The translations under genes were made by a program, and so were the position numbers. The notes beneath the pieces are model-generated. The model ran no database searches, was not told where the DNA came from, and worked only from the letters and a program-made list of their open reading frames with translations. A stretch of DNA of 64,000 nucleotides from Selenomonadales bacterium 4137-cl (GTDB taxonomy: Bacteria > Bacillota > Negativicutes > Sporomusales > UBA7701): NCBI GenBank assembly GCA_032334055.1, contig JAUOZS010000001.1:842501-906500 (forward strand), in the 5' to 3' direction. This document shows, one piece after another, positions 6,266 through 53,001 of this stretch; positions within the stretch are counted from its first letter, which is position 1; every line of letters starts with the position of its first letter.

Positions 6266-6273
6266 CTAAAGGC

Positions 6274-9773: not shown

Positions 9774-9779
9774 GTAGGC

Positions 9780-9814: not shown

Positions 9815-9820
9815 GGGGAT

Positions 9821-10049: not shown

Positions 10050-10087
10050 AAAACAAAGGCCGGAACCGATCGGTTCCGGTCTTTGTT
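10050..10087 (-). terminator. Terminator of fructose-bisphosphate aldolase gene
   Basis: Hairpin ACAAAGACCGGAACC / GGTTCCGGCCTTTGT (read on the minus strand, one G-T pair) followed by TTTTT, starting right at the stop codon of the aldolase gene. Confidence 0.88.
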
Positions 10088-11014: not shown

Positions 11015-11046
11015 AGAGATTCCCTCCTTGCTTTTTGTCCGCGTTA

Positions 11047-11055
11047 ATTATATCA
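11047..11055 (-). promoter_or_regulatory. fba: Extended -10 promoter of fba
   Basis: On the minus strand TGATATAAT forms an extended -10 (TGN-TATAAT) about 35 bp upstream of the fba start. No good -35 box is visible at 17 bp, which fits an extended -10 promoter. Confidence 0.55.
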
Positions 11056-11107
11056 CATTTTCCCAATTAGCGGAAAACGGTGTAGCGGCATTTCGGCCAG
11101 GGTTGCG

Positions 11108-12001
11108 CTAATCGCCGCCAGTCGGCGGAGAGTGCAGCTTGTCCAGCAGTTGGGCCATATCGGGGGGCAACGCGCTTGACAGCGATATCCGCTCGCCGCC
11201 GATCGGGTGGGAGAAGGCCAGAGCCGCTGCATGGAGAGCCGGCCTGGCGATGAGGGCGGTGGAGCCTCCGTACAGGTCGTCGCCGAGGATGGGATGCCCG
11301 AGGTGGGCGAGATGGACGCGAATCTGGTGTGTTCGGCCGGTAAGCAGGCGAAGGCGGACAACGCTGTGCGGGCCGGCTGTGGTGACTGTTTCGTAAATGG
11401 TGGCGGCGGTCTTGCCATCCGGGCAAACAGTGCGCTCGATGATGCTGCCTGGCAGACGCCCCACTGGCGCGTCGATCACGCCGGCCGGGGGGAGGGGATG
11501 TCCGGTGACGAGGGCGAGGTAAGAGCGCTCGATGGGCTTGGCGTTTTCCGAAGACAGGAGGTGCTGAACATAAGGGTTCTTGGCGATCAGAATCAGACCC
11601 GACGTATTGCGGTCCAGACGATGCACCGGGTGAAAGGCGCCAGGTTCACCCAGCGTGCGCAAGTGATGGACGATCGCATTGGCCAGCGTGGGTTCCGGTG
11701 TACCGCTCGCCGGATGGACGAGCAGGCCGGCGGGCTTATCCACCACCAGCAGGTGCTCGTCTTCGTAACTGATGGCGAGGGGCAGGGAAAGGGGAGCTAT
11801 AGTGCTCTCGTCAGGCCAGGAGATGGTGATGACATCGCCCGGCGTTACGGCTGTCTGCCAGGGAACGGGCCGCCCGTTAACGCGGATGGCATCCGGGGTG
11901 CGCTTCAGTTTGCGGCGGAGGGTAAGGGAGAAATTGAGACGGCGGAGGAGCTTGCTCAGTTGCGCGGGTTGTTCGCCGCCGGGGAGGGTAAAAGTGAACA
12001 T
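11108..12001 (-). CDS. RluA family RNA pseudouridine synthase
   Basis: A 297-residue enzyme that isomerises uridine to pseudouridine in rRNA or tRNA. An N-terminal S4-like region (residues about 10-60, ending VNGRPVPWQTAVTPGDVI) precedes the catalytic domain with HRLDRNTSG, where D130 is the expected nucleophile, then GRTHQIRVHLAHLGHPILGD. I chose the ATG at 12001, preceded by AAAGGACTGACATC, over a longer in-frame start that adds an unrelated Arg-rich tail. The RluA group contains several RNA specificities (RluA, RluC, RluD) and sequence alone does not decide the target. Confidence 0.92.
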   Translation of the reverse strand: MFTFTLPGGEQPAQLSKLLRRLNFSLTLRRKLKRTPDAIRVNGRPVPWQTAVTPGDVITISWPDESTIAPLSLPLAISYEDEHLLVVDKPAGLLVHPASGTPEPTLANAIVHHLRTLGEPGAFHPVHRLDRNTSGLILIAKNPYVQHLLSSENAKPIERSYLALVTGHPLPPAGVIDAPVGRLPGSIIERTVCPDGKTAATIYETVTTAGPHSVVRLRLLTGRTHQIRVHLAHLGHPILGDDLYGGSTALIARPALHAAALAFSHPIGGERISLSSALPPDMAQLLDKLHSPPTGGD

Positions 12002-38708: not shown

Positions 38709-38825
38709 TTGCCCCGTTTCCGAATACCAATATATTGTACGGACTAACTGAATAAAGAGCGTCAATGTTGACATATGGGGTATATTCAGTACAAATCGCA
38801 GCCTTGTTCCGAGGCTGCTTTTTAT
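38709..38825 (+). ncRNA. Candidate short structured transcript or attenuator
   Basis: TTGCCC (38709-38714) and TATATT (38731-38736), 16 bp apart, can start a transcript near 38743. Within about 80 nt it would form ACTGAATA (38747-38754) with TATTCAGT (38783-38790), an inner GTCAA-TG-TTGAC hairpin (38761-38772), and then terminator GCAGCCT/AGGCTGC (38798-38818) followed by TTTTT. So a promoter, a nested stem and a terminator lie in a gap just upstream of a separate promoter for the Mo-hydroxylase operon. It could be a small RNA or a regulatory leader whose readthrough feeds the operon. No known class recognised. Confidence 0.5.
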
Positions 38826-38833: not shown

Positions 38834-38862
38834 TTGCATAAATATAATTTTTAATGTATATT
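38834..38862 (+). promoter_or_regulatory. Promoter of Mo-hydroxylase gene cluster
   Basis: TTGCAT (38834-38839) and TATATT (38857-38862) are separated by 17 bp, 21 bp before the first start codon. It lies just after the small terminator, giving the operon an independent promoter. Confidence 0.65.
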
Positions 38863-38882
38863 TATTCTGGGAGGGTGATGGC

Positions 38883-39725
38883 ATGTTCGAATACCATGAG
38901 CCGCAATCGTTGGCCGAGGTCACTTCGTTCCTCGCCGCTCACGGGGAGGCGGCCCGGGTGCTGGCCGGCGGGACCGATCTTCTGGTGCAGATGCGCAAGG
39001 GTCGCCATCAGCCGCGCCACCTGCTGAATATCAAGACCGTGCCCGGGCTCGATCAGATTGTCGTCACCGAACACTGTGTGGAAATCGGCGCGGCCGTGAC
39101 GCTGCACGACGGGGAAAAGTTTCTATCCTCTCACCCTGAATACGGGGTGCTTTGCCAGGCGATGCACAGCGTGGCCTCCTGCCAGATTCGCAACCGGGCT
39201 ACCCTGGCCGGCAACGTCTGCAACGCCTCGCCTGCGGCCGATACTGTGCCTGCGCTGGCCGTGCTCGGCGCCAGTGTGAAAGTCCACGGCAGCCGCGGCG
39301 ACCGCCTCGTGCCGGTGGAACGTTTCTTCACCGGCCCCGGACGCACCGTCCTGCTCACCGGCGAGGTGGTAAGCGCAATCGTGTTGCCGCGAATTAACGG
39401 CGGGGGAAGGGGCGTTTTCCTCCGCAAGGCCCGCCGCCCGTCGCTCGATCTGGCAACCGCCAACGTCGCCGTACACGGCGCGGGGGCCAACTACCGCATC
39501 GCCCTCGGTGCGGTGGGGCCGACCGTTATCCGCGTGCGCGAGGCCGAGCGTCTGCTTGCCCGCCAGGGCCTAACGGCGCCTTCGGCGGCCGAGGCGGCCC
39601 GCATCGCCAGGCAGGCGGCCCGGCCGATAACCGATGTGCGCGGTTCGGAAGAATACCGCCTCGAGCTCGTGGCCGCCCTGACCGAACGGGCGCTGCTGAC
39701 CCTGGCCGGGGAGGTGAGGGCATGA
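38883..39725 (+). CDS. Molybdenum hydroxylase FAD-binding subunit
   Basis: A 280-residue medium subunit of a xanthine dehydrogenase-family enzyme. It binds FAD through LAGGTDLLVQMR (residues about 30-41) and TLAGNVCNASPAADT (about 110-124), and passes electrons from the Fe-S subunit to an acceptor. The C-terminal CO-dehydrogenase flavoprotein domain follows. GGGAGGGTGATGGC precedes the ATG; the longer open frame upstream covers the promoter. It overlaps the next gene by 4 bp. Whether the substrate is xanthine is not settled by this subunit. Confidence 0.92.
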   Translation: MFEYHEPQSLAEVTSFLAAHGEAARVLAGGTDLLVQMRKGRHQPRHLLNIKTVPGLDQIVVTEHCVEIGAAVTLHDGEKFLSSHPEYGVLCQAMHSVASCQIRNRATLAGNVCNASPAADTVPALAVLGASVKVHGSRGDRLVPVERFFTGPGRTVLLTGEVVSAIVLPRINGGGRGVFLRKARRPSLDLATANVAVHGAGANYRIALGAVGPTVIRVREAERLLARQGLTAPSAAEAARIARQAARPITDVRGSEEYRLELVAALTERALLTLAGEVRA

Positions 39726-40195
39726 AGACGATAACTTTAAAAGTCAACGGCCGGGAGGAAAAATTGACCCTGGCTCCCCACCGGACACTGCTCGACGTAT
39801 TGCGCGAGGACCTTGGCCTTACGGGCGCTAAGCGCGGCTGCGAAGCCGGGGAATGCGGCGCCTGCACCGTAATCTTGAACGGCAAGCCGGTCAACTCCTG
39901 TCTTGTGCTGGCCGTGGAACTCAATGGCGCCGAAGTGCTCACGGTTGAAGGCCTCGGCGGCCCCGGGGCGCTTGACCCGCTGCAACAGGCCTTTATCGAC
40001 CATTTCGCCCTGCAGTGCGGTTACTGCACCCCGGGCATGCTTCTCATGGGCAAGGCGCTGCTGGCCCAAAATCCCCGCCCCAGCGAGGACGAGGTCAAGG
40101 AATACATAAGCGGCAACCTCTGTCGCTGCACGGGCTACGAGAATATCGTAAAAGCGATTATGGCCGTTGCCGCGGGAGGTGAGCAGGATGGCTGA
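39722..40195 (+). CDS. Molybdenum hydroxylase 2Fe-2S subunit
   Basis: A 157-residue small subunit with two [2Fe-2S] clusters. Plant-type ferredoxin ligands: C40, C45, C48 and C60 (RGCEAGECGACTV). Second cluster: C99 and C102 in QCGYCTPGM, C134 and C136 in GNLCRCTGY. It carries electrons from the molybdenum centre to FAD. Start and stop overlap both neighbours (4 bp and 8 bp), so the three subunits are translated together. Confidence 0.95.
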   Translation: MKTITLKVNGREEKLTLAPHRTLLDVLREDLGLTGAKRGCEAGECGACTVILNGKPVNSCLVLAVELNGAEVLTVEGLGGPGALDPLQQAFIDHFALQCGYCTPGMLLMGKALLAQNPRPSEDEVKEYISGNLCRCTGYENIVKAIMAVAAGGEQDG

Positions 40196-42599
40196 GCACC
40201 GGGTGCTGGGGAAAAGCGTGCTGCGCCAGGACGCGGTCGATAAGGTCACCGGGGCGGCCCAATTTGTCGACGATATCCAGTTCGGGCCCACCCTGCTCCA
40301 TGTCAAAATTCTCCGCAGTCCCCACCCGCATGCGCGGGTAGTCTCCGTCGATACCGCCGAAGCCGAGAAGGTGCCGGGGGTGAAGGCCATCGTCACCGGC
40401 CGGGACTGCCGGAGTTACATCGGACTCTATCTGGCCGACCGCACGGTCTACGCCACCGATAAAGTCCGCTTTGTCGGCGAGCCGGTCGCGGGCGTCGCCG
40501 CCGACAGCGTCGAAGCCGCCAGCAAAGCGGTCAACCTCATCAAGGTCGAGTACCAGCCGTTGCCGGGCGTGTTCGACCCGGTGTCGGGCGCTCTCGGCCG
40601 CGAAGGCCTGCTGCACGAGAACCCGTCGGCGAGCGACCTGTGGTGGCAGGGCCTGCCCTGTATCGTCACCAAGTCGCCCGGGGCGCTGCTCCACGAGCAC
40701 CTCGGCGAATACCAATGCGCTCCCTTTATCCACCCCGTGCCCGGCACAAACATCTCCAACCACTTCAAGCTGCGCAAGGGGGATGTGGACCGTGGCTTCG
40801 CCGCGGCCGACGTCATTACGGAAAACGTCTACACCCTGCCCCATATCCAGCATTCCCAGATCGAGCCCCACTCGGCGGTCGCCCACTTCGACCGGGCCGG
40901 AAAACTGACGCTGTGGGCCTCCAGCCAGTCTCCCAACGCTGTCCGCAAGCTCATCGCCACCGCCTTCGAACTGCCGATGAGCAAGATCCGCGTCATCACT
41001 CCCTACGTGGGGGGCGGCTTCGGCGGCAAGGCCGGGGTGACCTGCGAGGCGCTCGTCGTGCCCCTTGCCAAGCGGCTGCCCGGGTATCACTTAAAACTGA
41101 CGCTGACCCGCGAGGAGGTCTTCCAGGCCACCTTCGTCCGCCAGGCGCTGGTGGCCAGGCTGAAAACGGGGGCGGACAGAACCGGCCGCCTCGTCGCCAT
41201 GGAGGCCGAACTTTTCTGGGACGGCGGCGCGTACACCGAATACGGCGTCAACATCACCCGCAGCGGCGGCTACTGTTCGTCCGGACCCTACGAGATACCC
41301 AACATCAAAACCGACTCCTACTGCGTATACACCAACCATCCGGTAGGCGGGCCGATGCGCGGCTTTGGCATGCCCGAGATCCACTGGGGCATCGAGCAGC
41401 AGATGGATATCCTCGCCGCCAAGCTGGGGATGGACCCGCTGGCCTTCCGGCGCATGAACGCCTTACGGGAAGGACGGCCAGGCGCGTTCGGCGGGGCGAT
41501 GGAAGGGGCGACGCTTGTCGACACCATCGACGCCGTGGCCGCGAAATGCGGCTGGGGAACCCCGCTGCCGCCGGCGTCGGCGCCCCATAAGGCCCGGGGC
41601 CGGGGAATTGCCTGCATGTACAAGGCCCCCTCCATGCCGCCCAACGCCCAGTCGTCGGCGATTCTCAAGCTAAACGAAGACGGCTCCGTCCACGTTCTGA
41701 CGACTGCCATGGAAATCGGCCAGGGTTCGCTTACCGCGCTGGCCCAGATCGCCGCCGAGGAACTCGGGGTCGCGGCCGACAAAGTCGTCGTAACCCTTCC
41801 TGATACCGACTACACGCCCTACGAGTGGCAGACGGTCGCCAGCCGCATCAGCTACTCCGCCGGCAACGCCGTTCTCGCGGCGGCCAGGGACGCCAAAACG
41901 CAGTTGCTCGCCGTGGCCGCGCAGGTGCTGGAAATTCCGGCCGCCGAACTCGTCATCGAAGACGGGCAGATATTCCCGCCGGCCAAGCCGACCCGCAAGC
42001 TCGCGATCAGCGATATCGCCATGGGCTACCTGCTGCCCGAGGGGGCTATCGGCGGCCCGGTCATCGGCCGTGGGTCGTTCATCCCCGCCGGCATCACCGG
42101 CCTGGATAAAGACACCGGCCAGGGTGACAAGCCGGCCGCTTTCTGGACCTACGGCACCCAGGTAGCCGACGTCGAGGTGGACACCAAAACGGGGGAAATA
42201 ACCGTTCTTAAGGTTACAGCCGCTTATGAAGTTGGCAAGGTGATCAATCCCGCCATGGCCAAGGGGCAGGTGCAGGGCGGCATCGTGCAGGGACTGGGGT
42301 CGGCGCTGTACGAGCACCTCGTGTTGTCCGAGGGCAAGTATCTTAACGGCGACTTCGTCGATTACAAGATCCCGACAGCCACCGACACCCCGGAAATGGA
42401 CGTCATTCTCCTGGAGACATCGCCCCAGGCTGACGGACCCTTCGGTATAAAAGGCATCGCCGAGCCCACCATGGTGCCGACCGCCCCCGCTATCGCCAAC
42501 GCCGTTTACAACGCCACGGGCGTGCGCATCAACGATCTGCCGCTGGCGGCGGAAAAAGTGCTCGCGGCGCTGATGAAGCAGCAGACACGCGGAAAATGA
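40188..42599 (+). CDS. Molybdenum hydroxylase catalytic subunit
   Basis: An 803-residue large subunit holding the molybdopterin cofactor. Features: the N-terminal LGKSVLRQDAVDKVTGAAQF domain, the Mo-binding region with TPYVGGGFGGKAG near residue 275, PMRGFGMPEIHWGIEQ near 390, AMEIGQGSLTALAQIAAEEL near 510, and KGIAEPTMVPTAPAIANA near 755 whose Glu matches the catalytic base of the family. No Cys replaces the active-site region, so it is not an aerobic CO dehydrogenase. The ATG at 40188 follows GGGAGGTGAGCAGG. Xanthine or hypoxanthine is the default substrate, but the downstream uracil-type permease makes a pyrimidine plausible. Confidence 0.93.
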   Translation: MAEHRVLGKSVLRQDAVDKVTGAAQFVDDIQFGPTLLHVKILRSPHPHARVVSVDTAEAEKVPGVKAIVTGRDCRSYIGLYLADRTVYATDKVRFVGEPVAGVAADSVEAASKAVNLIKVEYQPLPGVFDPVSGALGREGLLHENPSASDLWWQGLPCIVTKSPGALLHEHLGEYQCAPFIHPVPGTNISNHFKLRKGDVDRGFAAADVITENVYTLPHIQHSQIEPHSAVAHFDRAGKLTLWASSQSPNAVRKLIATAFELPMSKIRVITPYVGGGFGGKAGVTCEALVVPLAKRLPGYHLKLTLTREEVFQATFVRQALVARLKTGADRTGRLVAMEAELFWDGGAYTEYGVNITRSGGYCSSGPYEIPNIKTDSYCVYTNHPVGGPMRGFGMPEIHWGIEQQMDILAAKLGMDPLAFRRMNALREGRPGAFGGAMEGATLVDTIDAVAAKCGWGTPLPPASAPHKARGRGIACMYKAPSMPPNAQSSAILKLNEDGSVHVLTTAMEIGQGSLTALAQIAAEELGVAADKVVVTLPDTDYTPYEWQTVASRISYSAGNAVLAAARDAKTQLLAVAAQVLEIPAAELVIEDGQIFPPAKPTRKLAISDIAMGYLLPEGAIGGPVIGRGSFIPAGITGLDKDTGQGDKPAAFWTYGTQVADVEVDTKTGEITVLKVTAAYEVGKVINPAMAKGQVQGGIVQGLGSALYEHLVLSEGKYLNGDFVDYKIPTATDTPEMDVILLETSPQADGPFGIKGIAEPTMVPTAPAIANAVYNATGVRINDLPLAAEKVLAALMKQQTRGK

Positions 42600-42668
42600 T
42601 TTGCGCGTGTTCGCCATGGCCGTCGCCAGGCGGCCAAAAATACATAATAGGAAGGTGCGACTCAAGGT

Positions 42669-43988
42669 ATGGAAAGACGGATCATTCAAGTTGATGAACG
42701 ATTGCCCCTCACTCAGACTATCCCGCTCAGTCTCCAGCACTTATTTGCCATGTTCGGCGCCACCGTTCTCGTCCCGTTCCTGTTCAAGGTCGACCCGGCA
42801 ACCTCCCTGCTGATGAACGGCGTCGGCACCCTCGTCTATCTTTTCTTCTCCAACTGGCGCATCCCGGCCTACCTCGGCTCGAGCTTCGCTTTCATCGCCC
42901 CCGTATTCGCCGTCATGGCTGTGCCCAGCCTGGGCGGTTACGCAGCCGCGCAGGGCGGATTCATCATGTTCGGTATTTTCTTCGTCGTCGTTTCGTTTAT
43001 AATCAGAGTCGCCGGCGTCCGCTGGCTGGATGTCGTCTTCCCGCCGGCCGCCATGGGCGCCATCGTAGCCATCATCGGCCTTGAGCTTGCGCCGGTGGCC
43101 ACCGAAATGGCCGGCCTTACCGGCAAACTGATCGAGCAGCTCAAGATCCCCTATGCCACGGCCGTCACCGTTTCGATGTTCACCCTCGGCGTCACCATCC
43201 TCGGCTCGGTGCTCTTCCGCGGTTTCCTGTCCGTCATCCCCGTCCTTATCGGCGTTATCGCCGGCTACTGCCTGTCGCTGGCAATGGGCATCGTCGACCT
43301 GGGCGCGGTCGCCAAGGCCCCCTGGTTCGGCATCCCGACCTTCTACGCCCCGGTTTTCAATATCTCCGCTATCCTGATGATTATGCCTGCCTTCCTGGTC
43401 GTGCTTGCCGAGCACATCGGCCACCTTGTCGTCACCGGCAACATTGTTGAGCGCGATCTGGTCAAAGACCCCGGTCTCCACAAATCCCTCCTTGGCGACG
43501 GCATCTCCAACATTCTGTCCGGCTTCGCAGGCGCCACCCCCAACACCACCTACGGCGAGAACATCGGCGTCATGGCGATCACCAAGGTATTCAGCACCTA
43601 CGTCATCGCCGGCGCGGCCATCATCGCCATCGCCGTATCCTTTATCGGCAAATTCTCGGCTCTCATCCGCAGCATCCCCGTGCCGGTCATGGGCGGCGTC
43701 TGCATCCTGCTGTTCGGCGTCATCGCCGCCGCCGGTATCCGCATGCTCATCGAACGGAAAGTCGACTACACCAAATCCAAAAACCTCATCCTCACCTCGG
43801 TCGTCCTCATCAGCGGTATCAGCGGCGCGGCCGTCAAAATAGGCACCGTCGAGCTCAAGGGCATGGCTCTCGGCACAATCGTCGCCATCGTCATCAGCCT
43901 GGTGTTTGAACTCTTCGACCAGTTGGGGTGGACCAACGACGGCGAACCCAGCGCTCCCACCATTCACGTAGTGGACGAACAGAAATAG
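42669..43988 (+). CDS. uraA: NCS2 nucleobase permease, uracil (UraA) type
   Basis: A 439-residue transporter with about 12-14 helices. IPLSLQHLFAMFGATVLVPF is the family N-terminus. Two motifs decide the subgroup: FLVVLAEHIGHLVVTG, with the Glu equal to E241 of E. coli UraA, and TTYGENIGVMAITKV, with the Glu equal to E290. Xanthine permeases of the XanQ/PbuX type have Gln/Asn at the second place. I therefore favour uracil or a related pyrimidine over xanthine. It sits between the Mo-hydroxylase and the FdrA-type genes. A small hairpin lies upstream (42617-42637). Confidence 0.88.
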   Translation: MERRIIQVDERLPLTQTIPLSLQHLFAMFGATVLVPFLFKVDPATSLLMNGVGTLVYLFFSNWRIPAYLGSSFAFIAPVFAVMAVPSLGGYAAAQGGFIMFGIFFVVVSFIIRVAGVRWLDVVFPPAAMGAIVAIIGLELAPVATEMAGLTGKLIEQLKIPYATAVTVSMFTLGVTILGSVLFRGFLSVIPVLIGVIAGYCLSLAMGIVDLGAVAKAPWFGIPTFYAPVFNISAILMIMPAFLVVLAEHIGHLVVTGNIVERDLVKDPGLHKSLLGDGISNILSGFAGATPNTTYGENIGVMAITKVFSTYVIAGAAIIAIAVSFIGKFSALIRSIPVPVMGGVCILLFGVIAAAGIRMLIERKVDYTKSKNLILTSVVLISGISGAAVKIGTVELKGMALGTIVAIVISLVFELFDQLGWTNDGEPSAPTIHVVDEQK

Positions 43989-43990
43989 GG

Positions 43991-44016
43991 AGGAGCCCGC
44001 TAAAGCGGGCTTTCTC
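43991..44016 (+). terminator. Hairpin after permease gene
   Basis: AGCCCGC-TAAA-GCGGGCT followed by TTCTCC, 5 bp after the permease stop and 15 bp before the next start. It is probably a leaky terminator or processing site inside the cluster. Confidence 0.65.
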
Positions 44017-44031
44017 CACTCTTAGGGACTG

Positions 44032-44931
44032 ATGTCATTGCTGGAGGCTCTCTCGGTCGACGCCGCGGCTAGCGACGCCCTGTTCGGGCGGCCTTTCCGC
44101 GGTCGCGTACATAGCGTATTCGCCAAAACGGTCAATTTCACCGGCCCGCGTGGGCAGCTTCATTGCCTGGCGGCCGAGGAACTCGACGATGCGCCGGGAA
44201 CAATAAGGGTCCGGCATTCTGAGGGCCTGAGGCTCGACAGCCTCGGTATAAAGCCGGGCGACGAGGTCGCGACCTTCGGCGGCGGCCTGGCTTTTGGCGC
44301 GGTGCCGCTGGTTGCCCGTGAGGTGAGGCCATGGTCGGCGTCCCTGCCGGCGTTTCCGTCTGTACCGGCCGGGCGGAACCTCCTGGCGGCGCGCCTTGTC
44401 GTACTGAAGAACGAAATTGTCGCCGCTGGATATGACGGCGGTCTGAAGGCTTTTATCGGGGGGACGGTCGGCACCGTTATGGAAAACCGGCTGGCGGAGC
44501 GGGCGGCGGCGCTGATCAGCACTCTTGTTGACGGAGACCTTTCCGACGCCCTGGCTGCCGGAAGGAGGCTGATCGGCCTGGGAACCGGCCTGACGCCTTC
44601 CGGCGACGATTTCCTTGCCGGTCTGATGATTACTTTCAATATGCCGGCCGGTCCCTTCGGGCGACGTTACCGCGAGGTCGCGAAAAAACTTGCCGCCGGC
44701 GCGGAGACGGGAACGGTGAGCCGAGCCATGCTGCAATACGCCGCCCGCGGCCGCACCAGGGACGGAGTCGTGGCGCTCCTGGCAGCGATGACAGATCCGG
44801 CAGCCCGCGACATCGTAGCCGCCGTGCGGCGGGTGCTGGCCTGCGGGGCCACCTCCGGCACCGACCTTGCGGCAGGTATCGCCGCCGGCCTGTCTACGGG
44901 GCTGGAACTAGCCGGCGAAAGGGAGGAATGA
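44032..44931 (+). CDS. DUF2877 protein (AllH/YlbF-like)
   Basis: A 299-residue protein whose signature GLGTGLTPSGDDFLAG (residues 182-197) defines DUF2877. In E. coli the DUF2877 protein YlbF, with FdrA and the DUF1116 protein YlbE, forms oxamate carbamoyltransferase, which phosphorolyses oxalurate to oxamate and carbamoyl phosphate in anaerobic allantoin degradation. All three homologues are consecutive here, so the same type of chemistry is expected. The Shine-Dalgarno site (AGGGACTG) is weak and the ATG lies after the permease hairpin, so expression may be lower than upstream genes. The real substrate is inferred, not shown. Confidence 0.88.
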   Translation: MSLLEALSVDAAASDALFGRPFRGRVHSVFAKTVNFTGPRGQLHCLAAEELDDAPGTIRVRHSEGLRLDSLGIKPGDEVATFGGGLAFGAVPLVAREVRPWSASLPAFPSVPAGRNLLAARLVVLKNEIVAAGYDGGLKAFIGGTVGTVMENRLAERAAALISTLVDGDLSDALAAGRRLIGLGTGLTPSGDDFLAGLMITFNMPAGPFGRRYREVAKKLAAGAETGTVSRAMLQYAARGRTRDGVVALLAAMTDPAARDIVAAVRRVLACGATSGTDLAAGIAAGLSTGLELAGEREE

Positions 44932-44932
44932 C

Positions 44933-46408
44933 ATGACTGTACACGTCGAGGTAAGAAAGAACACCTATTACGACTCGGTCACGCTGATGGCGCTGACCCA
45001 GAAGATGGCCGCCCTGCCCGGCGTCGCCGAAGCGGTGGCCGTGATGGCCACCCCGATGAACAAAGATCTGTTGGCCGGGGTCGGTCTGCTGACGGCAGAG
45101 GCGGACGCTTGCGGTGCCGACGATCTGGTTGTCGCTATCAGGGCCGACAGCGATGCGGCCTGTGAAGCGGCCGTGGCACTCTTTGCCGGGGCTGCGGCCA
45201 GACAGTCCGGGGACAAAAAAACGGCCGCCGGCTTCGTTTCCCTGAACACCGCGGTGCGTCATCTGCCAGACGCCAACCTCGCAATTATCTCCGTGCCGGG
45301 CGAGTACGCGGCCCGTGAAGCCAGAGACGCCCTCCGCCACGGCCTCAACGTCATGCTGTTCAGCGACAACGTCTCACTGGCCGACGAGATCGAATTGAAA
45401 ACAACGGCCCACGAAAAGGGCCTGCTGGTGATGGGACCGGATTGCGGCACCGCCATCGTGAACGGCGTCGCTCTCTGTTTCGCCAACGCCGTGCGGCGGG
45501 GCAACATCGGCATTGTCGGCGCATCGGGGACGGGTACCCAGGAAGTGACCGTACACATCGACCGCCTGGGGGGCGGCATATCGCAGGTGCTCGGCACCGG
45601 CGGGCGCGATCTCGGCGAAGCGGTGGGCGGAGTTATGATGCTCGATTGTCTGGAGGCACTAAGCAAAGACGCAGATACCGCCGTTATTGTGCTCATCTCC
45701 AAGCCGCCGGCGACGGCGGTGGCCGACAAGATCGTTGCGGCCGTAAAAACCTGTCCCAAGCCCGTGGTCGTCTGCTTTCTCGGTGGCGCGAGCGCGGTCA
45801 GGGCAGAAAAGGCATACTTCGCCGCCACCCTGGAGGAAGCGGCTGGGGCGGCGGTGGCGCTGGCTAAAGGGGAACAGCCCGCATCTCCGGCCTGCCGGCA
45901 CGAAAAACTGGCGACGATGGCAGCGGTGGCGCGGGCCAAACTGGCTCCCGGACAAAAAACCGTACGCGGTCTTTTTTGCGGCGGCACTCTCTGCCAGGAA
46001 GCGGCCAGGACGGCGCCGGGCGAAGGGAATATCTTCATCGACCTTGGGGACGACGCCTACACCAGAGGTAAGCCTCACCCGATGCTTGAGCCGTCGCTGC
46101 GGCTGCCCCACCTCCTCGATGCCGCCCGTGACCCGGCCGTGGCCGTCATCCTCCTCGACATCGTCCTGGGCTATGGGGCTCATCCCGATCCCGCGGGCGT
46201 AACCGCCCCGGCCATCGCCGAGGCCCGCGAAATCGCCCGCGCCGCCGGACGCCACATCGAAATCATCGCCTATGTCTGCGGGACGGATGCCGACCCCCAG
46301 GGTAAGGCCGGCCAGGAGGGCAAACTGGCCGCGGCCGGGGCGACACTGGCGAAAAGCAACGTGCGCGCCGCTTGGCTGGCGGCCGCCGTCGTGACCAGGG
46401 AGGTGTGA
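44933..46408 (+). CDS. fdrA: FdrA-like protein (carbamoyltransferase subunit)
   Basis: A 491-residue protein related to succinyl-CoA synthetase alpha subunits. It has a CoA-ligase-like fold with VMGPDCGTAIVNG near residue 165, NIGIVGASGTGTQEVTVHID near 190, and a second domain with GLFCGGTLCQEAA near 345. An N-terminal ACT-like segment (VEVRKNTYYDSVTLMALTQK) precedes these. FdrA works with DUF1116 and DUF2877 proteins as an oxamate carbamoyltransferase in E. coli. GGGAGGAATGAC precedes the ATG, 1 bp after the previous stop. It is named for a suppressor phenotype and is not an FtsH regulator by evidence here. Confidence 0.9.
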   Translation: MTVHVEVRKNTYYDSVTLMALTQKMAALPGVAEAVAVMATPMNKDLLAGVGLLTAEADACGADDLVVAIRADSDAACEAAVALFAGAAARQSGDKKTAAGFVSLNTAVRHLPDANLAIISVPGEYAAREARDALRHGLNVMLFSDNVSLADEIELKTTAHEKGLLVMGPDCGTAIVNGVALCFANAVRRGNIGIVGASGTGTQEVTVHIDRLGGGISQVLGTGGRDLGEAVGGVMMLDCLEALSKDADTAVIVLISKPPATAVADKIVAAVKTCPKPVVVCFLGGASAVRAEKAYFAATLEEAAGAAVALAKGEQPASPACRHEKLATMAAVARAKLAPGQKTVRGLFCGGTLCQEAARTAPGEGNIFIDLGDDAYTRGKPHPMLEPSLRLPHLLDAARDPAVAVILLDIVLGYGAHPDPAGVTAPAIAEAREIARAAGRHIEIIAYVCGTDADPQGKAGQEGKLAAAGATLAKSNVRAAWLAAAVVTREV

Positions 46409-46410
46409 CA

Positions 46411-47832
46411 ATGGCACCGATAAACGATTTATTCGGTAAGAAACTTTCCGTCATAAACATCGGGGCGCCGGTATTTAAAGACGACCTCGCCGCCCAGAAC
46501 GTTTCGGTCGTCCAACTCGACTGGCGGCCGCCGGCCGGCGGTCGCCCGGAACTCATCGCCGCCCTTGACGTCCTGCGGGACCGCGCGGCGACCGACGAGG
46601 CCAATGCCGTTGCAGTGGCCGCCATTTTGGACGCGCGGCCGGTGCTGACTGACGTAGCCCTCACCGCCTTGGAAGCCATTCCCGGCATGACGCCCACCAC
46701 CATTCTCCACGCCGGCCCGCCGGTGGCCTGGGAGGCGATGGCTGGGCCGATGCGCGGCGCGGTCATCGGCGCCCTCATCTACGAAGGGCTGGCTGCCGAC
46801 GAACAAGAGGCAGGGCGCCTGGCCGCCTCAGGCAGGATAACCTTCGCCCCCTGTCACGAGTACGGCGCAGTCGGGCCGATGGCGGGCATAGTCTCCGCCT
46901 CGATGCCGGTGTGGGTGGTGGAGAACAAAACCGCTGGCAATCGCTCCTTCTGCACCCTCAACGAAGGCCTTGGCAAGGTGTTGCGCTACGGCGCCTTCAG
47001 CGCCGAAGTTATCGACCGGCTGCGCTGGATGCGCGATGAGCTCGCCCCCGCCCTCAAAGCAGCCCTTGCCCGTACCGGCGGCATCGACCTGAGGACGATG
47101 ATCGCCCAGGCGCTCCACATGGGCGACGAATGCCACAACCGCAACAAAGCTGGCACCAGCCTCTTCATCCGCGCCATCGCTCCCGCCCTCGCCCAAACCG
47201 GCGCGGCGCCGGAAGTCATGGCCAGAGTGCTGGCGTTCATGCACTCCAACGACCATTTCTTCCTCAACCTTTCCATGCCGGCGGCCAAGGCGGCCCTGGA
47301 CGCCGCCCACGGCATCGAAGGCGCCAGCGTCGTCACCACCATGTGCCGCAACGGCGTGGAGTTTGGCATAAGAGTGAGCGGCTGCCCCGGCAACGCCTGG
47401 TTCACCGGCCCCGCCCAGCAAGTGCAGGGGCTGCTCTTCCCCGGCTTCACCGCGGCCGACGCCAACCCCGATATCGGCGACAGCGCCATAACAGAGACCT
47501 ACGGCATCGGCGGCTTCGCCATGGGCGGGGCGCCGGCCATCGTCCAGTTCGTGGGCGGCACCGTCGGCGACGCGCTTGAATACACGACTAAAATGTACGA
47601 AATAACCCTGGCCGAAAACCCCAGCTACACCATCCCCAACCTCAACTTCCGCGGCACGCCCACCGCCATCGACCTGCGACGGGTGGCCGCCACCGGGCTG
47701 CTGCCGGTCATCAACACCGGCATGGCCCACCGCGAGCCGGGCATCGGCCAGGTGGGGGCAGGAATCGTCCGGCCGCCGCGCGAATGCTTCGATAAGGCGC
47801 TGCTGGCGCTTGCCAAACGGGTCGATATGTAA
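46411..47832 (+). CDS. DUF1116 protein (AllG/YlbE-like)
   Basis: A 473-residue protein of DUF1116, third member of the trio. Typical stretches include VVQLDWRPPAGG near the N-terminus, GPMRGAVIGALIYEGLA, GDECHNRNKAGTSLFIRAIAP in the middle, MCRNGVEFGIRVSG and ETYGIGGFAMGGAPAIVQFVGG. The conserved His, Asp and Asn around GDECHNRNKAG are candidates for a catalytic or ligand-binding role. The ATG at 46411 follows GGGAGGTGTGAC, just after fdrA. Tight spacing supports one complex made from genes 44032-47832. Confidence 0.9.
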   Translation: MAPINDLFGKKLSVINIGAPVFKDDLAAQNVSVVQLDWRPPAGGRPELIAALDVLRDRAATDEANAVAVAAILDARPVLTDVALTALEAIPGMTPTTILHAGPPVAWEAMAGPMRGAVIGALIYEGLAADEQEAGRLAASGRITFAPCHEYGAVGPMAGIVSASMPVWVVENKTAGNRSFCTLNEGLGKVLRYGAFSAEVIDRLRWMRDELAPALKAALARTGGIDLRTMIAQALHMGDECHNRNKAGTSLFIRAIAPALAQTGAAPEVMARVLAFMHSNDHFFLNLSMPAAKAALDAAHGIEGASVVTTMCRNGVEFGIRVSGCPGNAWFTGPAQQVQGLLFPGFTAADANPDIGDSAITETYGIGGFAMGGAPAIVQFVGGTVGDALEYTTKMYEITLAENPSYTIPNLNFRGTPTAIDLRRVAATGLLPVINTGMAHREPGIGQVGAGIVRPPRECFDKALLALAKRVDM

Positions 47833-47869
47833 TCCCCAGGATAAATCACGGAAAAGAGAGGGAAGCTTT

Positions 47870-48655
47870 ATGGTCAAAAACTGGGACAAAGTGAAAATGT
47901 ACGATCTTACGCAGAAACTGAGCCATCTGACGCCGCCGTGGCCGACCTACGAGCCGCTGCAGATCAAATTCTTCAAGCGCCTCACCTCCAACGGCGCCAA
48001 CGGTCAGGTCATAACCACCTCCAACCATGTCGGCACCCACCTGGACGGCTCGCTCCACTTCTGCACCCACGGTCGCGACATCGCCGCCATCCCCCTGACC
48101 GACCTTATCGGTCCCGGCGTCGTCGTCGATGTGAGCGACATCGCCGAGGACTACGGCATCTACACCTCCAAGGACATCATGGAGCGGGCCGACGTGCGCG
48201 AAGGCGACATCCTCCTCATCTACACCGGCTATCACAAATATTCCTGGGATCAGCCGGCCGCCGACGAGGTCCGCTACATGGTCAAGCACCCCGGCCCGAC
48301 CCGTGAGTTCGCGGAGTGGTGCCTAAAAATGAAATTCAAATGGCTGGGAGTAGACGCCGGCTCGGCCGACCATCCCATTAACACCAAAATCCGCGAATGG
48401 TGCCCGCGGCAGGCGGCCGAGTGCGAACAGTATTTCCGGGCGAAGTACGGCAAGGGCATCGACGACATCTTTCCCCCCGACCACTACCAGCTCATGCATA
48501 TCGACCTCTTCCCCCACGACATCATCCATGTCGAGAATGTCGGCGGCGAAATCGAGAAGGTGCTTGGCAAGCGCCTGATAATCGGCTGTTACCCCTGGCG
48601 GTTCGAAGGCGGCGAATCGTCGATCTGCCGCATCGTCGCCTATGACGAAGAATAA
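47870..48655 (+). CDS. Cyclase-family metal-dependent amidohydrolase
   Basis: A 261-residue protein of the cyclase family (PF04199), which includes kynurenine formamidase and isatin hydrolase. The metal-binding motif reads SNHVGTHLDGSLHF near residue 45; KNWDKVKMYDLTQKLSHLTPPWPT forms the expected start, and GVDAGSADHPINTKIREW and HIDLFPHDIIHVENVGGE hold further conserved residues. These enzymes hydrolyse amide bonds, often in rings. Placed after an oxidising hydroxylase and before nothing else catabolic, it is a good candidate for ring opening of the oxidised base. AGAGAGGGAAGC precedes the ATG. It overlaps yqeC by 14 bp. Confidence 0.87.
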   Translation: MVKNWDKVKMYDLTQKLSHLTPPWPTYEPLQIKFFKRLTSNGANGQVITTSNHVGTHLDGSLHFCTHGRDIAAIPLTDLIGPGVVVDVSDIAEDYGIYTSKDIMERADVREGDILLIYTGYHKYSWDQPAADEVRYMVKHPGPTREFAEWCLKMKFKWLGVDAGSADHPINTKIREWCPRQAAECEQYFRAKYGKGIDDIFPPDHYQLMHIDLFPHDIIHVENVGGEIEKVLGKRLIIGCYPWRFEGGESSICRIVAYDEE

Positions 48656-49436
48656 CGAGGTGCTGCACCCGGTCTGGCGCGAACTTCTCGCCGGGCTGCC
48701 GGCTTCCGGACTGGTGACCCTCATCGGCGGCGGCGGCAAGACCAGCCTCATGTATTACCTGGTGGCCGGACTCAAGGCCGCCGGAACCGTTGCCTTCGCC
48801 GCCACCACCGCCAAACTGTTCATGCAGGAGGGAGCGGGCCACCGGACGGTACTGGTAGGCAGCCTGGCCGAATTCCGCCGGGCGGTCGGGGAATTGCGCT
48901 CCTGCCCCGCAATGGTGACCGTGGCCCGCGGGCTGGTGGACGGTGCGCAGCGCAAACTGGCCGGCCTCGCGCCGGAATGGCTCGATACGCTGGCCGGGGA
49001 ATGCCCCGCCATACGTTTTATAGTCGAAGGGGACGGCTCAGCCGGTCTGCCGCTTAAAGGCCATCTTCCTCACGACCCTGTGGTGCCGGCGGCCACCCGT
49101 CTCCTCATTCCGGTCATCGGCGCCGAGGCGGTCGGCCAACCGCTTGCCGCCTGCTGCGTCCATCGGCCGGCACGGGCAGCAGAGCTCACCGGCGCGGCCG
49201 AGGGGGAAATCATAACGGCGGACACGGTCGCTAAACTCCTCCTTCACCCCAAAGGCTATCTTCACAACTGTCCGCCTGAAGCGCGCGTCGTCCCCCTCAT
49301 AAACAAAGCCGAGGGAGCGGCGATGCGTACCGCGGAAGATTTGGCGGCCACCGTACTCGCGGCCCGCCATCCCGCCGTCGGAGGCGTCGTCGTCGGCAGC
49401 ATCAGGAGGCAGGAATTTTCCTTTATCAGAAAATAG
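48642..49436 (+). CDS. yqeC: Selenium-dependent hydroxylase accessory protein YqeC-like
   Basis: A 264-residue P-loop protein: LVTLIGGGGKTSLMYYLVAG (residues 24-43) and FIVEGDGSAGLPLKGH near 130. YqeC is a marker protein of the set found with selenium-dependent molybdenum hydroxylases, together with YqeB and a MocA-like protein. YqeB and selD are not in the window. The gene overlaps the cyclase gene, so it belongs to the same unit and probably serves the Mo-hydroxylase encoded upstream. The exact reaction is unknown. Confidence 0.85.
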   Translation: MTKNNEVLHPVWRELLAGLPASGLVTLIGGGGKTSLMYYLVAGLKAAGTVAFAATTAKLFMQEGAGHRTVLVGSLAEFRRAVGELRSCPAMVTVARGLVDGAQRKLAGLAPEWLDTLAGECPAIRFIVEGDGSAGLPLKGHLPHDPVVPAATRLLIPVIGAEAVGQPLAACCVHRPARAAELTGAAEGEIITADTVAKLLLHPKGYLHNCPPEARVVPLINKAEGAAMRTAEDLAATVLAARHPAVGGVVVGSIRRQEFSFIRK

Positions 49437-49558: not shown

Positions 49559-49828
49559 ATGAAAGTCGTCATCACCATCATCGGCCAGGACAGGGTCGGC
49601 ATCGTCGCCATGGCCAGCACGACGCTGGCGGCCAACAGCGTAAACATCCTCGACATCAACCAGAATATCGTCAACGGCTTTTTCAACATGGTCATGATCG
49701 CCGACATGAGCGGGGCGACGATAAGCCTCAAAGACCTGCAGCAGCTTTTCAAGGACAAAGGACAAGCCATGGGCCTCGAGATCAAGGTGCAGCACGAGGA
49801 TATCTTCAAAGCGATGCACCGCATATAA
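49559..49828 (+). CDS. ACT domain protein (UPF0237)
   Basis: An 89-residue single ACT domain: VVITIIGQDRVGIVAMASTT, then NILDINQNIVNGFFNMVMIAD. It matches the UPF0237 family, usually found directly before a UPF0210 gene, as here. ACT domains bind small ligands such as amino acids. The ATG at 49559 lies after GGGTGGAGCG. It probably forms a unit with the following gene. Ligand unknown. Confidence 0.9.
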   Translation: MKVVITIIGQDRVGIVAMASTTLAANSVNILDINQNIVNGFFNMVMIADMSGATISLKDLQQLFKDKGQAMGLEIKVQHEDIFKAMHRI

Positions 49829-49899
49829 AGCCGGCTGCTCGTTTGTGAACAGCCTCAAGTCTGTGGTAATATTTCTGCTCATGTTGAAGGAGGCGGGCT

Positions 49900-51258
49900 A
49901 TGCTATCGGTCCAGGATATCCTCGAAACCAACCGGATGATCGAGGAAAATAAGCTCGACGTGCGCACGATCACCCTCGGGATCAGCCTGCGCGGCTGCAG
50001 CCATCCCGACATCAAGGTTTTCTGCGCCAATATTTACGACAAAATCACCAAGACTGCCGAGCGGCTGGTGCAGACCGGCGAAGACATCGAAGCCGAGTAC
50101 GGCATCCCCATCATCAACAAACGCATCTCGGTCACACCGATCGCCATCGCCGCCGAGAGCTGCCGCACCGACAGCTATCTGCCGGTGGCTGAGGCCATGG
50201 ATGCCGCCGCCAAGGCGGTCGGCGTCAACTTCATCGGCGGCTTTTCGGCTCTCGTGGAGAAAGGCTACACCGAGGGAGACCGCATCCTCATCCGCTCCAT
50301 CCCCGCCGCGCTGGCCACTACCGAGCGGGTATGCTCCTCGGTCAATCTCGCGTCCACCAAAGCCGGCATCAACATGGACTGTGTGCGGGAAATGGGCCAG
50401 ATCATCAAACAGACGGCCGAACTGACCCGCGATCGCGACGCGCTCGGTTGCGCCAAACTCGTGGTATTCGCCAATGTCCCGGAGGACAACCCCTTCATGG
50501 CCGGCGCCTTCCATGGCGTGGGCGAGGCTGAGACGGCCGTAAACGTCGGGGTAAGCGGTCCCGGCGTCGTCAAACGGGCGTTGGAAGAAGCGCGTGGCAA
50601 GGACTTCGGCGCGGTCGCCGAGACGATCAAGCGCACCGCGTTCAAAATCACCCGTGTCGGCCAGCTTGTGGCCCAGGAGGCATCGCGCCGCCTCGGCGTG
50701 CCCTTCGGCATTATCGATCTGTCGCTAGCGCCCACGCCGGCGGTCGGCGACAGCGTAGCCCACATCCTTGAAGAAATGGGCCTGGAGAGCTGCGGCGCAC
50801 CCGGCACCACCGCGGCCTTGGCGCTTCTCAACGATGCCGTCAAGAAAGGCGGCATCATGGCCTCCTCCTACGTGGGCGGCCTGAGCGGCGCCTTCATCCC
50901 CGTCAGCGAGGACGCCGGCATGATCGCCGCCGTCGAGCGCGGCAGCCTATCCCTGGAAAAGCTCGAGGCAATGACCTGTGTCTGCTCGGTCGGCCTGGAT
51001 ATGATCGCCGTGCCGGGGGATACCTCGGCGGCCACGATCGCCGCCGTCATCGCCGACGAGGCGGCCATCGGCATGATCAACAACAAAACCACGGCGGTGC
51101 GCATCATCCCCGTGCCGGGCAAGAAGGTCGGCGACCGGGTCGAATTCGGCGGTCTCCTCGGCCATAGCCCGATAATCCCTGTCAACCGCTTCAAAGCCGA
51201 CGCTTTCATCGCCCGCGGCGGCCGCATTCCCGCGCCCGTGCGCAGCATGACCAATTAG
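49900..51258 (+). CDS. UPF0210 (DUF711, PFL family) protein
   Basis: A 452-residue protein of DUF711. Features include [14 protein letters not shown] near the N-terminus, [56 protein letters not shown], and [16 protein letters not shown]. The fold is reported as related to glycyl-radical enzyme barrels, but members lack the activity evidence to name a reaction. The pairing with the ACT-domain gene is conserved in many bacteria. GAAGGAGGCGGGCT precedes the ATG. Role in this cluster is unknown and it may simply be a neighbour. Confidence 0.9.
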
Positions 51259-51367: not shown

Positions 51368-52393
51368 ATGGCGATAAAAAAAGTACGGGTTGAAGAAGCG
51401 GTCGGAATGGTCTTGGGCCATGACATCACCAAAATCGTGCCTGGCGAATACAAAGGCCCGGCCTTCAAGAAAGGCCACATCATCCGGGACGAGGACATTC
51501 CCCATCTGAAAAATATCGGCAAAGAGCATATCTACTTAATTGAACTTACCGCCGGGCAGGTGCACGAAAACGAGGCCGTCACCCGCATCGCCCGGGCGGT
51601 GGCTGGCCCCGGGATTACCCTTGCCGAGCCGTCCGAAGGCAAGGTCAACCTCAAAGCGGCCGCTGATGGGCTCCTGAAGGTCGACCGCGAGTTGGTGACA
51701 GCCATAAACGGCGTAGAACACGCCGTGCTTTCCACCCTCCAGGGCAACCTCCCCGTGAAAGCCGGCGCCCTGCTGGCCTCGGTCAAGGTCGTGCCGCTGG
51801 TAGTGGAGATGGCCACCGTGGAGGCGGTGGAGAAACTTGCCGTGTCGAAAAGCGTAATCTCCGTGATGCCGATGCGCAACCTAAAGGTAGCGGCCGTCAT
51901 CACCGGCAACGAGGTCTTCCACGGCCGCATCGAAGACCGTTTCGGCCCGGTTTTCGCAGCCAAGGCGGCTCAGTACGGCGCCACCCTGATCGGTACCACC
52001 TTCCGGCCGGATGACCCTGAACTCATCAAAGAAGCGATCCTTGCCTATAAAGACCAGGGGGCTGACGTAATCGTCGCTTCCGGCGGCATGTCGGTCGATC
52101 CCGACGACGTAACCCCTGACGCCATCCGCGCCACCGGGGCCGAAGTGGTCAGCTACGGCAGCCCGGTCCTCCCCGGCGCGATGTTTATGCTCGCCTACCT
52201 GGGCGATGTCGCCGTAATGGGTATGCCGGCCTGCGGCATGTACTCCAAAACCACCGCGTTTGACATGATATTACCGCGCGTGCTGGCTGGCGAGCGGCTG
52301 CGGAAAGGCGACATCGCCGCCCTCGGGTACGGCGGCTTATGCCTGTCTTGCCCTCAGTGCACCTATCCCCACTGCCACTTCGGCAAAGCATGA
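51368..52393 (+). CDS. MoeA-like molybdopterin-binding protein
   Basis: A 341-residue protein. The C-terminal half is a MoCF-type molybdopterin-binding domain: VITGNEVFHGRIEDRFGP near residue 178, VIVASGGMSVDPDDVTPDAI near 235 and MGMPACGMYSKTTAFD near 285. The N-terminal half lacks the standard MoeA domains I and II, and the C-terminus ends in a Cys/His cluster (CLSCPQCTYPHCHF). Such short MoeA-like proteins are found next to xanthine dehydrogenase-type genes. The ATG at 51368 is 8 bp after GGGAG. It overlaps mocA by 4 bp. Confidence 0.85.
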   Translation: MAIKKVRVEEAVGMVLGHDITKIVPGEYKGPAFKKGHIIRDEDIPHLKNIGKEHIYLIELTAGQVHENEAVTRIARAVAGPGITLAEPSEGKVNLKAAADGLLKVDRELVTAINGVEHAVLSTLQGNLPVKAGALLASVKVVPLVVEMATVEAVEKLAVSKSVISVMPMRNLKVAAVITGNEVFHGRIEDRFGPVFAAKAAQYGATLIGTTFRPDDPELIKEAILAYKDQGADVIVASGGMSVDPDDVTPDAIRATGAEVVSYGSPVLPGAMFMLAYLGDVAVMGMPACGMYSKTTAFDMILPRVLAGERLRKGDIAALGYGGLCLSCPQCTYPHCHFGKA

Positions 52394-53001
52394 TTGCCGC
52401 GGTAGTCCTTGCCGCCGGCGGTTCCCGGCGGATGGGCCGCCCCAAGCAACTTCTGCCGCTCGCCGGCCGGCCGTTGGTTTGGCATGTCGCCGCTGCCGCC
52501 TGCCGGTCGGTCGCCGGCGAAGTGCTCGTTGTCACCGGAGCGGAGCAGACCGCCGTTAAGGCCGCCGTCGCCTGTCTGCCTGCCAAAGTGATTCCCAACC
52601 AATCCTGGCGCGAAGGTCAGGCGAGTTCGCTTAAGGCAGGACTGAACGCCGTGAGCCCAAGTGCGCGGGCGGTTATCTTCCTGCTCGCCGACCAGCCGCT
52701 CGTCACCCCGGAATTGATCGATTCGCTGGCGGCGGCCTGGCGTGCCGGCGGCGGATCCATCGTCGCTCCGGTCGCCGGCGGTAGACGCGGCAACCCGGTG
52801 CTATTCGACCTGGGCCGCTGGCTGCAGCCGTTAACGGCCCTTGCTGGCGACGCTGGCGCCAGGACGGTCATCGCCGCCAACCCGGATCAGCTAACCGCCG
52901 TGCCGGTCGTCGATGAGGCGATGTTCTTCGATGTCGACACCCCCGACCAGTACGAAGAAATAAAACGCCTTTATAAAGCAATACACCCTGGAGGCCACTG
53001 A
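52390..53001 (+). CDS. MocA-like molybdenum cofactor nucleotidyltransferase
   Basis: A 203-residue NTP transferase. The N-terminal LAAGGSRRMGRPKQLLPL (residues 7-24) is the nucleotide-binding signature of the MobA/MocA group, followed by LLADQPLVTPELID near residue 100 and AMFFDVDTPDQYEEI. MocA attaches CMP to molybdopterin to make the dinucleotide cofactor used by xanthine dehydrogenase-family enzymes; YgfJ-like relatives serve selenium-dependent hydroxylases. Translational coupling to the MoeA-like gene supports a role in maturing the hydroxylase. Confidence 0.88.
   Translation: MIAAVVLAAGGSRRMGRPKQLLPLAGRPLVWHVAAAACRSVAGEVLVVTGAEQTAVKAAVACLPAKVIPNQSWREGQASSLKAGLNAVSPSARAVIFLLADQPLVTPELIDSLAAAWRAGGGSIVAPVAGGRRGNPVLFDLGRWLQPLTALAGDAGARTVIAANPDQLTAVPVVDEAMFFDVDTPDQYEEIKRLYKAIHPGGH

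Follow-up and report, generated by a model that had tools for sequence, protein, structure and literature searches.

A candidate oxidative, phosphorolytic pyrimidine-degradation operon in Selenomonadales bacterium 4137-cl and its relatives

Which pathway is served by an operon that joins a molybdenum hydroxylase, a uracil-type permease, the three AllFGH transcarbamylase subunits and a hydrolase of family PF04199? This question is raised by a 64,000-nucleotide stretch of DNA from the anaerobe Selenomonadales bacterium 4137-cl (bases 842501-906500 of contig 1 of the 4.50-Mb three-contig genome), referred to below as the window. An initial annotation had proposed an oxidative pyrimidine route ending in carbamoyl phosphate, and all eight genes on which it was built were identified at 38883-48655 on the plus strand. 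Together with a ninth gene they occupy 38883-49436, in one direction and with overlaps or short gaps. The eight genes are spaced, in order, by -4, -8, 69, 43, 1, 2 and 37 nt (negative values are overlaps; the start of the hydrolase gene, here called Cyc, was shifted to the ATG at 47870 for these figures), and the ninth shares its first 14 nt with the end of Cyc. Since this arrangement was seen again in other genomes, it should reflect more than chance. The nine genes, which include all three AllFGH subunits (PF11392, NF004760 and PF06545), are as follows:

38883..39725 (+), flavin adenine dinucleotide (FAD) subunit of the molybdenum hydroxylase, XdhB-like (PF00941, PF03450; best NCBIfam match XdhB, under its cut-off)
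39722..40195 (+), 2Fe-2S subunit of the molybdenum hydroxylase, XdhC-like (PF01799, PF00111)
40188..42599 (+), catalytic subunit of the molybdenum hydroxylase (PF01315, PF02738, PF20256), proposed to hydroxylate uracil (thymine) to barbiturate
42669..43988 (+), UraA-type uracil permease of the NCS2 family (NF007995, 659.9 bits versus a cut-off of 477)
44032..44931 (+), AllH/DUF2877, transcarbamylase subunit (PF11392, 91 bits versus a cut-off of 25)
44933..46408 (+), AllF/FdrA, transcarbamylase subunit (NF004760 FdrA, 494 bits versus a cut-off of 433), a relative of the solved structure 3dmy
46411..47832 (+), AllG/DUF1116, transcarbamylase subunit, placed by a tree in a non-allantoin clade (PF06545, 341 bits versus a cut-off of 27)
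47870..48655 (+), Cyc, PF04199 hydrolase (123.7 bits versus a cut-off of 23.1), proposed barbiturase converting barbiturate to ureidomalonate
48642..49436 (+), YqeC, accessory protein tied to selenium-dependent molybdenum hydroxylases (TIGR03172, 135.8 bits versus a cut-off of 73)

Our results suggest that the operon probably encodes an oxidative, phosphorolytic pathway of pyrimidine degradation. Its gene content, conservation, co-occurrence and clade separation were directly observed, and from these we infer every reaction and substrate. Uracil would be imported by the UraA-type permease and converted to barbiturate by the molybdenum hydroxylase, perhaps a selenium-dependent one in view of YqeC and a MobA-like protein. 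The ring of barbiturate would be opened by Cyc to give ureidomalonate, which AllFGH would cleave with phosphate into malonamate and carbamoyl phosphate. Because ureidomalonate is the homologue of oxalurate with one more methylene, such a phosphorolysis appears reasonable. An amidase, unlinked here and linked in two relatives, would then release malonate. In most relatives, carbamate kinase could turn carbamoyl phosphate into ATP, whereas in this strain carbamoyl phosphate might pass to a carbamoyltransferase or another outlet. The exact succession of barbiturate, ureidomalonate and malonamate seems reasonably probable.

The comparison was based on 40 Cyc loci from 38 genomes, that is, the window and 37 further genomes (L and G numbers are our own for loci and genomes; L041, L042 and L082 belong to one genome, and L036 and L053 were removed as duplicates). 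In the class, Cyc matches were found in 13 of 300 genomes, nine of them orthologue-like (85-100% identity) and four remote (about 30-34%), and a scan of genome contigs gave 34 Cyc loci with 64-98% identity. By record title, these loci belong to Selenomonadales, other Bacillota, Atribacterota, Thermotogae, Elusimicrobia, Eisenbacteria and others, and the closest Cyc proteins in named records are from metagenome-assembled genomes (MAGs) of Selenomonadales (98-92%). Genes of the relatives were called mechanically, and where the G+C content was high, antisense frames took the place of real genes (AllG in L051, L052 and L054, recovered by tblastn; AllH in L061), so that the neighbour counts given below are lower bounds. 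Several loci also end at contig ends. Besides matching the PF04199 profile, Cyc has the conserved motif block of the family, HxGTHxDxxxH (H52, G54, T55, H56, D58 and H62), which was invariant in 21 aligned orthologues and which we take to bind metal. Isatin hydrolase and bacterial kynurenine formamidase, as named in the PDB matches, are members of PF04199, and the predicted model of Cyc resembles their folds; the isatin hydrolase matches were used for the fold only, because the model is poor. Cyc shares the fold family and motif block with these enzymes but differs from them in having remote sequence similarity only (E about 1e-5 to 1e-8) and, as proposed, another substrate. By analogy, cleavage of a cyclic imide such as barbiturate would fit the amide-bond-cleaving chemistry of PF04199 enzymes.

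The neighbours of Cyc point to a pyrimidine substrate, which agrees with the initial annotation. NCS2 permeases clustering with that of the window were found in the loci of 12 of the 38 genomes. Four were tested, and those of the window, L039 and L041 were over the uracil-permease cut-off, the window permease being under the cut-offs for RutG and xanthine permease (TIGR03173, 203 bits versus 414). Directly 3' of Cyc lies carbamate kinase in six genomes, uridine phosphorylase in five (the two tested, in L067 and L061, over the TIGR01718 cut-off), CN_hydrolase in five, ornithine carbamoyltransferase in four and amidase in one; cytosine-deaminase-like genes occur in the Cyc loci of five genomes. 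Enzymes predicted by the initial annotation and missing from the window are therefore encoded beside Cyc in relatives, together with pyrimidine salvage enzymes. Judging from this gene context, pyrimidines are likely the substrate class of the operon. In L061, a reductive pyrimidine operon on the minus strand (3239-8429) is divergent from AllH, Cyc and uridine phosphorylase on the plus strand (9096-11722). It encodes a PreA dihydropyrimidine dehydrogenase subunit (546 versus a cut-off of 335), a dihydropyrimidinase (466 versus 393), a PreT-like flavoprotein under the cut-offs and a CN_hydrolase, for which ureidopropionase is a likelier role than malonamate amidase. This operon strengthens the pyrimidine context, yet it also means that Cyc can adjoin another pyrimidine route.

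Such genes fix the class of the substrate, not the exact base. The operon might thus make carbamoyl phosphate from pyrimidines via other intermediates, be it from thymine or 5-methylcytosine (through 5-methylbarbiturate and ureido-methylmalonate), from another oxidised pyrimidine or from a compound of the reductive route. In G307 (L154, 348-4576), MeaB and the C-terminal domain of a methylmalonyl-CoA mutase, each over its cut-off, are encoded beside an aldehyde:ferredoxin oxidoreductase (AOR), AllF and AllG, as would be expected for thymine and as a hint of a branch ending in methylmalonate; L061, with its reductive operon, is another contig of the same genome. On the other hand, uridine phosphorylase and the uracil-type permease favour uracil in the first place, and HyuA-like matches (dihydropyrimidinase-type; E. 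coli query) were found in L061 only, one of the 40 Cyc loci. On this evidence, other intermediates are a real but rather unlikely alternative.

In several lineages, the cluster is repeatedly accompanied by genes for three further types of protein: c10, with a GNAT fold (8 loci), a thiolase of the SCP2 type (5) and a small zinc-ribbon protein resembling ChsH2 (3), as at 11050-13271 of L054, 11880-14106 of L056 and 33-2249 of L074. They may handle an acyl-CoA product. The predicted GNAT fold of c10 (best of five models with a predicted local distance difference test score, pLDDT, of 75.9, the others with 45-52) indicates no specific function, and its assignment as malonyl-CoA decarboxylase would be a guess.

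Carbamoyl phosphate, the product named by the initial annotation, is also a likely one on the basis of gene neighbourhoods and co-occurrence. Carbamate kinase was found somewhere in 33 of the 38 Cyc-positive genomes (30 over cut-off), compared with 2 of 14 control genomes, and the six copies directly after Cyc were all over the cut-off. Three of the four congeners encode it away from Cyc. In L069, L070, L072 and L073 (Elusimicrobia or similar), the gene directly 3' of Cyc is ornithine carbamoyltransferase (one tested, over the TIGR00658 cut-off), a possible consumer of carbamoyl phosphate. With regard to the amidase step, the loci of ten Cyc-positive genomes contain amidase- or nitrilase-family genes (CN_hydrolase in eight, amidase-signature in two). 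Their products are possible malonamate amidases, except the one that probably belongs to the reductive operon. The order of transcription in a single locus of G042 is AllF, AllG, Cyc, carbamate kinase, amidase and then the hydroxylase subunits. The genome of 4137-cl has two amidase-signature matches unlinked to Cyc, and one of these (L105) is 59.5% identical to the Cyc-adjacent amidase of G064 and 56.3% identical to that of G042.

The transcarbamylase trio itself is closely associated with Cyc. AllG was found in 37 of the 38 Cyc-positive genomes, also where the two genes are unlinked, the exception being a 0.6-Mb MAG. Within the class, AllG occurs in 21 of 300 genomes, namely all nine with a Cyc orthologue and 12 others (Fisher p 6e-12, with relatedness ignored and five of the nine Cyc-positive genomes from one genus). 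Where the AllG region was inspected in four genomes of Elusimicrobia and two of Thermotogae, Cyc was not seen beside the trio, which implies that the co-occurrence is more than linkage. An AllG tree of 50 rows was built from the Cyc-positive genomes and others, excluding G303 (no AllG), G314 (AllG split between two frames) and G319 (a fragment at a contig end). A branch with support of 100/98 divided this tree into the row of L142 with the 35 of Cyc-positive genomes (26 linked and 9 unlinked) on one side and 14 rows (five allantoin-linked, eight others and L144) on the other, and the AllG of the window falls outside the allantoin-linked group, across that branch. The 14 rows stayed together (98) in a quick tree rebuilt with PDB 3clq. 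Searches (tblastn) with E. coli AllC, AllD and AllE gave no match in any of the 40 Cyc loci, window included, or in L142 and L144. Four trio loci without Cyc (L143, L145, L146 and L147) and E. coli had AllD and AllE in five of five cases and AllC in four, the L143 stretch beginning inside the AllC/D/E-type operon. Neighbourhoods were inspected in 4 of the 12 genomes of the class that have AllG but no Cyc orthologue, and around a second copy in G064. The separate clade and the lack of allantoin genes in Cyc loci are in line with the non-allantoin trio of the initial annotation. In the whole genome of 4137-cl, for which no AllC/D/E search was made, the best D-hydantoinase-like matches (286 and 217 bits) were under the family cut-off.

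Could the trio act on oxalurate as in E. coli, with the hydroxylase and Cyc yielding oxalurate from a hydantoin- or parabanate-type ring? AllFGH of E. coli is an oxamate carbamoyltransferase, which catalyses the reversible phosphorolysis of oxalurate to oxamate and carbamoyl phosphate (PMC11326118). In addition, CoA-transferase III was found in five Cyc loci, and the two tested, under every curated cut-off, best matched CoA:oxalate CoA-transferase. However, AllC, AllD and AllE are missing from all 40 Cyc loci, the AllG of these genomes stands apart from allantoin-linked AllG, and the clusters contain pyrimidine genes, which together make oxalurate a quite improbable substrate.

Residues at AllG positions 243 and 282 were considered as a determinant of substrate length. 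They are Asn/His in all 35 rows of Cyc-positive genomes and Gln/Gln in all 13 allantoin-side rows (L142, with Asn/His, and L144, with Gln/Gln, were set aside). Asn has one methylene less than Gln, as would fit a longer substrate. This idea was set aside as well, as Asn is likewise present in PDB 3clq, there followed by Tyr at position 282, and no role of the site in substrate binding is known. Some variant loci were also observed. In L142 (7823-10441), AllG adjoins an XdhB-like frame, perhaps a remnant. L144 (6939-13479, G064) has a second trio-like set without AllC/D/E, in which AllF and AllG are joined by carbamate kinase, a transporter-like frame and an amidohydrolase resembling cytosine deaminase; it may serve a third substrate class. 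In L065 (4119-5201), L156 (1589-2671) and L152 (1517-2614), an uncharacterised protein is encoded between AllF and AllG; the L156 copy is weakly phosphoribosyltransferase-like (19.6 bits, cut-off 27) and the L152 copy had no Pfam match.

For the oxidation step, a molybdenum hydroxylase was found in 33 of the 38 Cyc-positive genomes (PF02738, E up to 1e-20). The catalytic subunit of the window was under the cut-off of all 13 NCBIfam families listed. In a quick tree that left out L040 (split over two frames), 19 Cyc-linked subunits formed a group separate from E. coli XdhA and XdhD as well as from seven of the eight paralogues of 4137-cl; one paralogue on a long branch fell inside the Cyc-linked group and another was sister to it. 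The five genomes without a molybdenum hydroxylase match (G311, G313, G314, G317 and G328) gave 6, 6, 3, 6 and 5 AOR-family matches, respectively, and in the first four AOR lies within the Cyc locus (L065, L067, L068 and L071; one tested). This distribution suggests that the AOR family may be exchangeable with the molybdenum hydroxylase at this step, with the qualification that these MAGs are small and that AOR also occurs in 23 genomes that have molybdenum hydroxylases (28 of 38 genomes overall). YqeB-like frames, as we presume them to be, occurred only in the relatives L038, L058 and L083. YqeC is followed in the window by an ACT-domain gene, a gene that we take to encode DUF711, and two genes with a possible role in the molybdenum cofactor:

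51368..52393 (+), molybdopterin-binding protein with a MoeA/MoaB domain (TIGR00177, 61 bits, under the cut-off of 85)
52339..53001 (+), MobA-like NTP transferase (PF12804), possibly a MocA-type molybdenum cofactor cytidylyltransferase

The ACT-domain and DUF711-like genes occupy 49559-51258, and the latter stands out by its conservation, with 94-98% identity in four congeners and 89% in G064. According to Haft and Self (PMC2276186), molybdenum hydroxylases with YqeC-type accessory genes form a selenium-dependent group known from purine loci; YqeC would tie the hydroxylase of the window to this group, and it is perhaps selenium-dependent. An operon for the hydroxylation of purines (xanthine or hypoxanthine), with the trio acting on an unrelated substrate, could be argued from that group and from PucR-type regulators in four loci (one tested), but it is very improbable given the uracil-type permease, the pyrimidine genes of relatives and the separate xanthine-permease-linked molybdenum hydroxylase of the strain (539.8 bits versus 414), which groups with E. 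coli XdhD and not with the Cyc-linked enzymes. In all, the genome has nine molybdenum hydroxylase matches. Separate loci are present at 2806000-2824000 (L043) and 2914000-2930000 (L044) of contig 1, one with a molybdenum hydroxylase beside the xanthine permease and one with two molybdenum hydroxylases and ABC-transporter-like and hydantoinase-like genes.

Several observations weigh against the proposed uracil-to-carbamoyl-phosphate route. First, carbamate kinase was not found in a whole-genome search of 4137-cl (completeness 100), where the matches appear from their sequences to be acetylglutamate kinase and glutamate 5-kinase, nor in the congener G087 (completeness 96); it was also not found in three MAGs of 0.6-1.1 Mb. 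The initial annotation had noted that both carbamate kinase and a malonamate amidase are missing from the window, and only the latter has a candidate elsewhere in the genome. ATP formation is therefore unestablished for this strain, and that part of the earlier proposal is unsupported here, while comparison supports the pyrimidine class, the non-allantoin trio, carbamoyl phosphate and the amidase step. Second, the pyrimidine context has weak points: the L054 permease was under the uracil-permease cut-off (255.7 versus 477), the three cytosine-deaminase-like proteins tested were all under theirs (432, 276 and 263 versus 438), the linkage of uridine phosphorylase and AOR is based on few lineages, and both the CN_hydrolase of L061 and the pyrimidine context of that locus may be due to its reductive operon. 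Third, PDB 3clq is placed on a long branch among the Cyc-side AllG rows, and the Cyc-side AllG of L142 comes from a genome (G012) without a Cyc orthologue. Finally, the best matches of the CoA-transferases could fit an oxalate-type product, and the predicted Cyc structure is of low confidence (pLDDT 64.3).

The proposed pathway resembles known systems in part. The classical oxidative pyrimidine route consists of uracil dehydrogenase, barbiturase and ureidomalonase. Barbiturate and ureidomalonate would be intermediates here as well, whereas the ring opener is a PF04199 hydrolase rather than a member of the AtzD/barbiturase family, and ureidomalonate, which is hydrolysed to urea and malonate in the classical route, would undergo phosphorolysis to carbamoyl phosphate. 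None of the eight operon genes, to which this comparison was confined, encodes an AtzD-type barbiturase (all belong to other Pfam families). The allantoin end-pathway of E. coli, AllFGHK (PMC11326118), has the same three subunits, acyl-urea phosphorolysis (proposed here) and the carbamate kinase that most Cyc-positive relatives have; it differs in that AllG here lies across the tree branch and Cyc and pyrimidine genes replace AllC/D/E in the loci. The anaerobic urate cluster of E. coli (XdhD, HyuA, YgeW and YqeA; PMC12507026) follows a similar logic of molybdenum hydroxylase, ring opener, carbamoyltransferase and carbamate kinase, but with its own ring opener, the unrelated carbamoyltransferase YgeW and a purine substrate. 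The same source (2025) has the reductive, oxidative, Rut and URC routes on record for pyrimidine degradation. Uracil catabolism is common to the reductive (Pyd), Rut and URC routes and the one proposed here, and a reductive operon even adjoins Cyc in L061, but here oxidation rather than reduction would precede ring opening, and HyuA-like genes are nearly absent from the Cyc loci.

The sequence 5' of the operon has a 9-bp inverted repeat (ATAAATATA, 10 nt, TATATTTAT) at 38838-38865, overlapping a promoter-like site, directly preceded by a terminator-like stem at 38798-38818. Judged by eye, a large part of both is retained in three congeners and not in L038; counts of promoter- and terminator-like sites in this upstream region are close to the shuffled mean. 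No Rfam family reached its gathering threshold in the operon, weak matches being far under theirs. At its beginning (1-3233), the window starts inside a 23S rRNA gene, followed by two equal-scoring 5S rRNA genes with a tRNA between them.

Among the matches listed in a search of the open-access literature, we recognised no paper connecting the breakdown of uracil or barbiturate with FdrA/AllFGH or with a cyclase of PF04199, and a 2025 paper on nitrifiers interprets allFGHK as oxalurate degradation (PMC12625717). The pathway is thus probably a variant of oxidative pyrimidine catabolism without an earlier description found in that literature. On a broader scale, it is an evenly balanced question whether this is a multi-phylum route, found largely in uncultured bacteria, by which a molybdenum hydroxylase or an AOR-family (tungsten) enzyme would oxidise uracil and possibly thymine, a new PF04199 family would act as barbiturase, and a dedicated AllFGH clade would act as malonuric transcarbamylase, so that cleavage of RNA bases would yield ATP. 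The proposal is directly testable in a named isolate, Anaerospora hongkongensis DSM 15969 (L053, G111), which carries permease, trio, Cyc and hydroxylase together and carbamate kinase elsewhere in its genome. If the pathway holds, a function would be assigned to two uncharacterised groups, the PF04199 clade of Cyc and the clade of non-allantoin AllFGH, molybdenum and AOR-family enzymes might, as suggested above, be replaceable by each other in one step, and fermenting bacteria could gain ATP from RNA bases.

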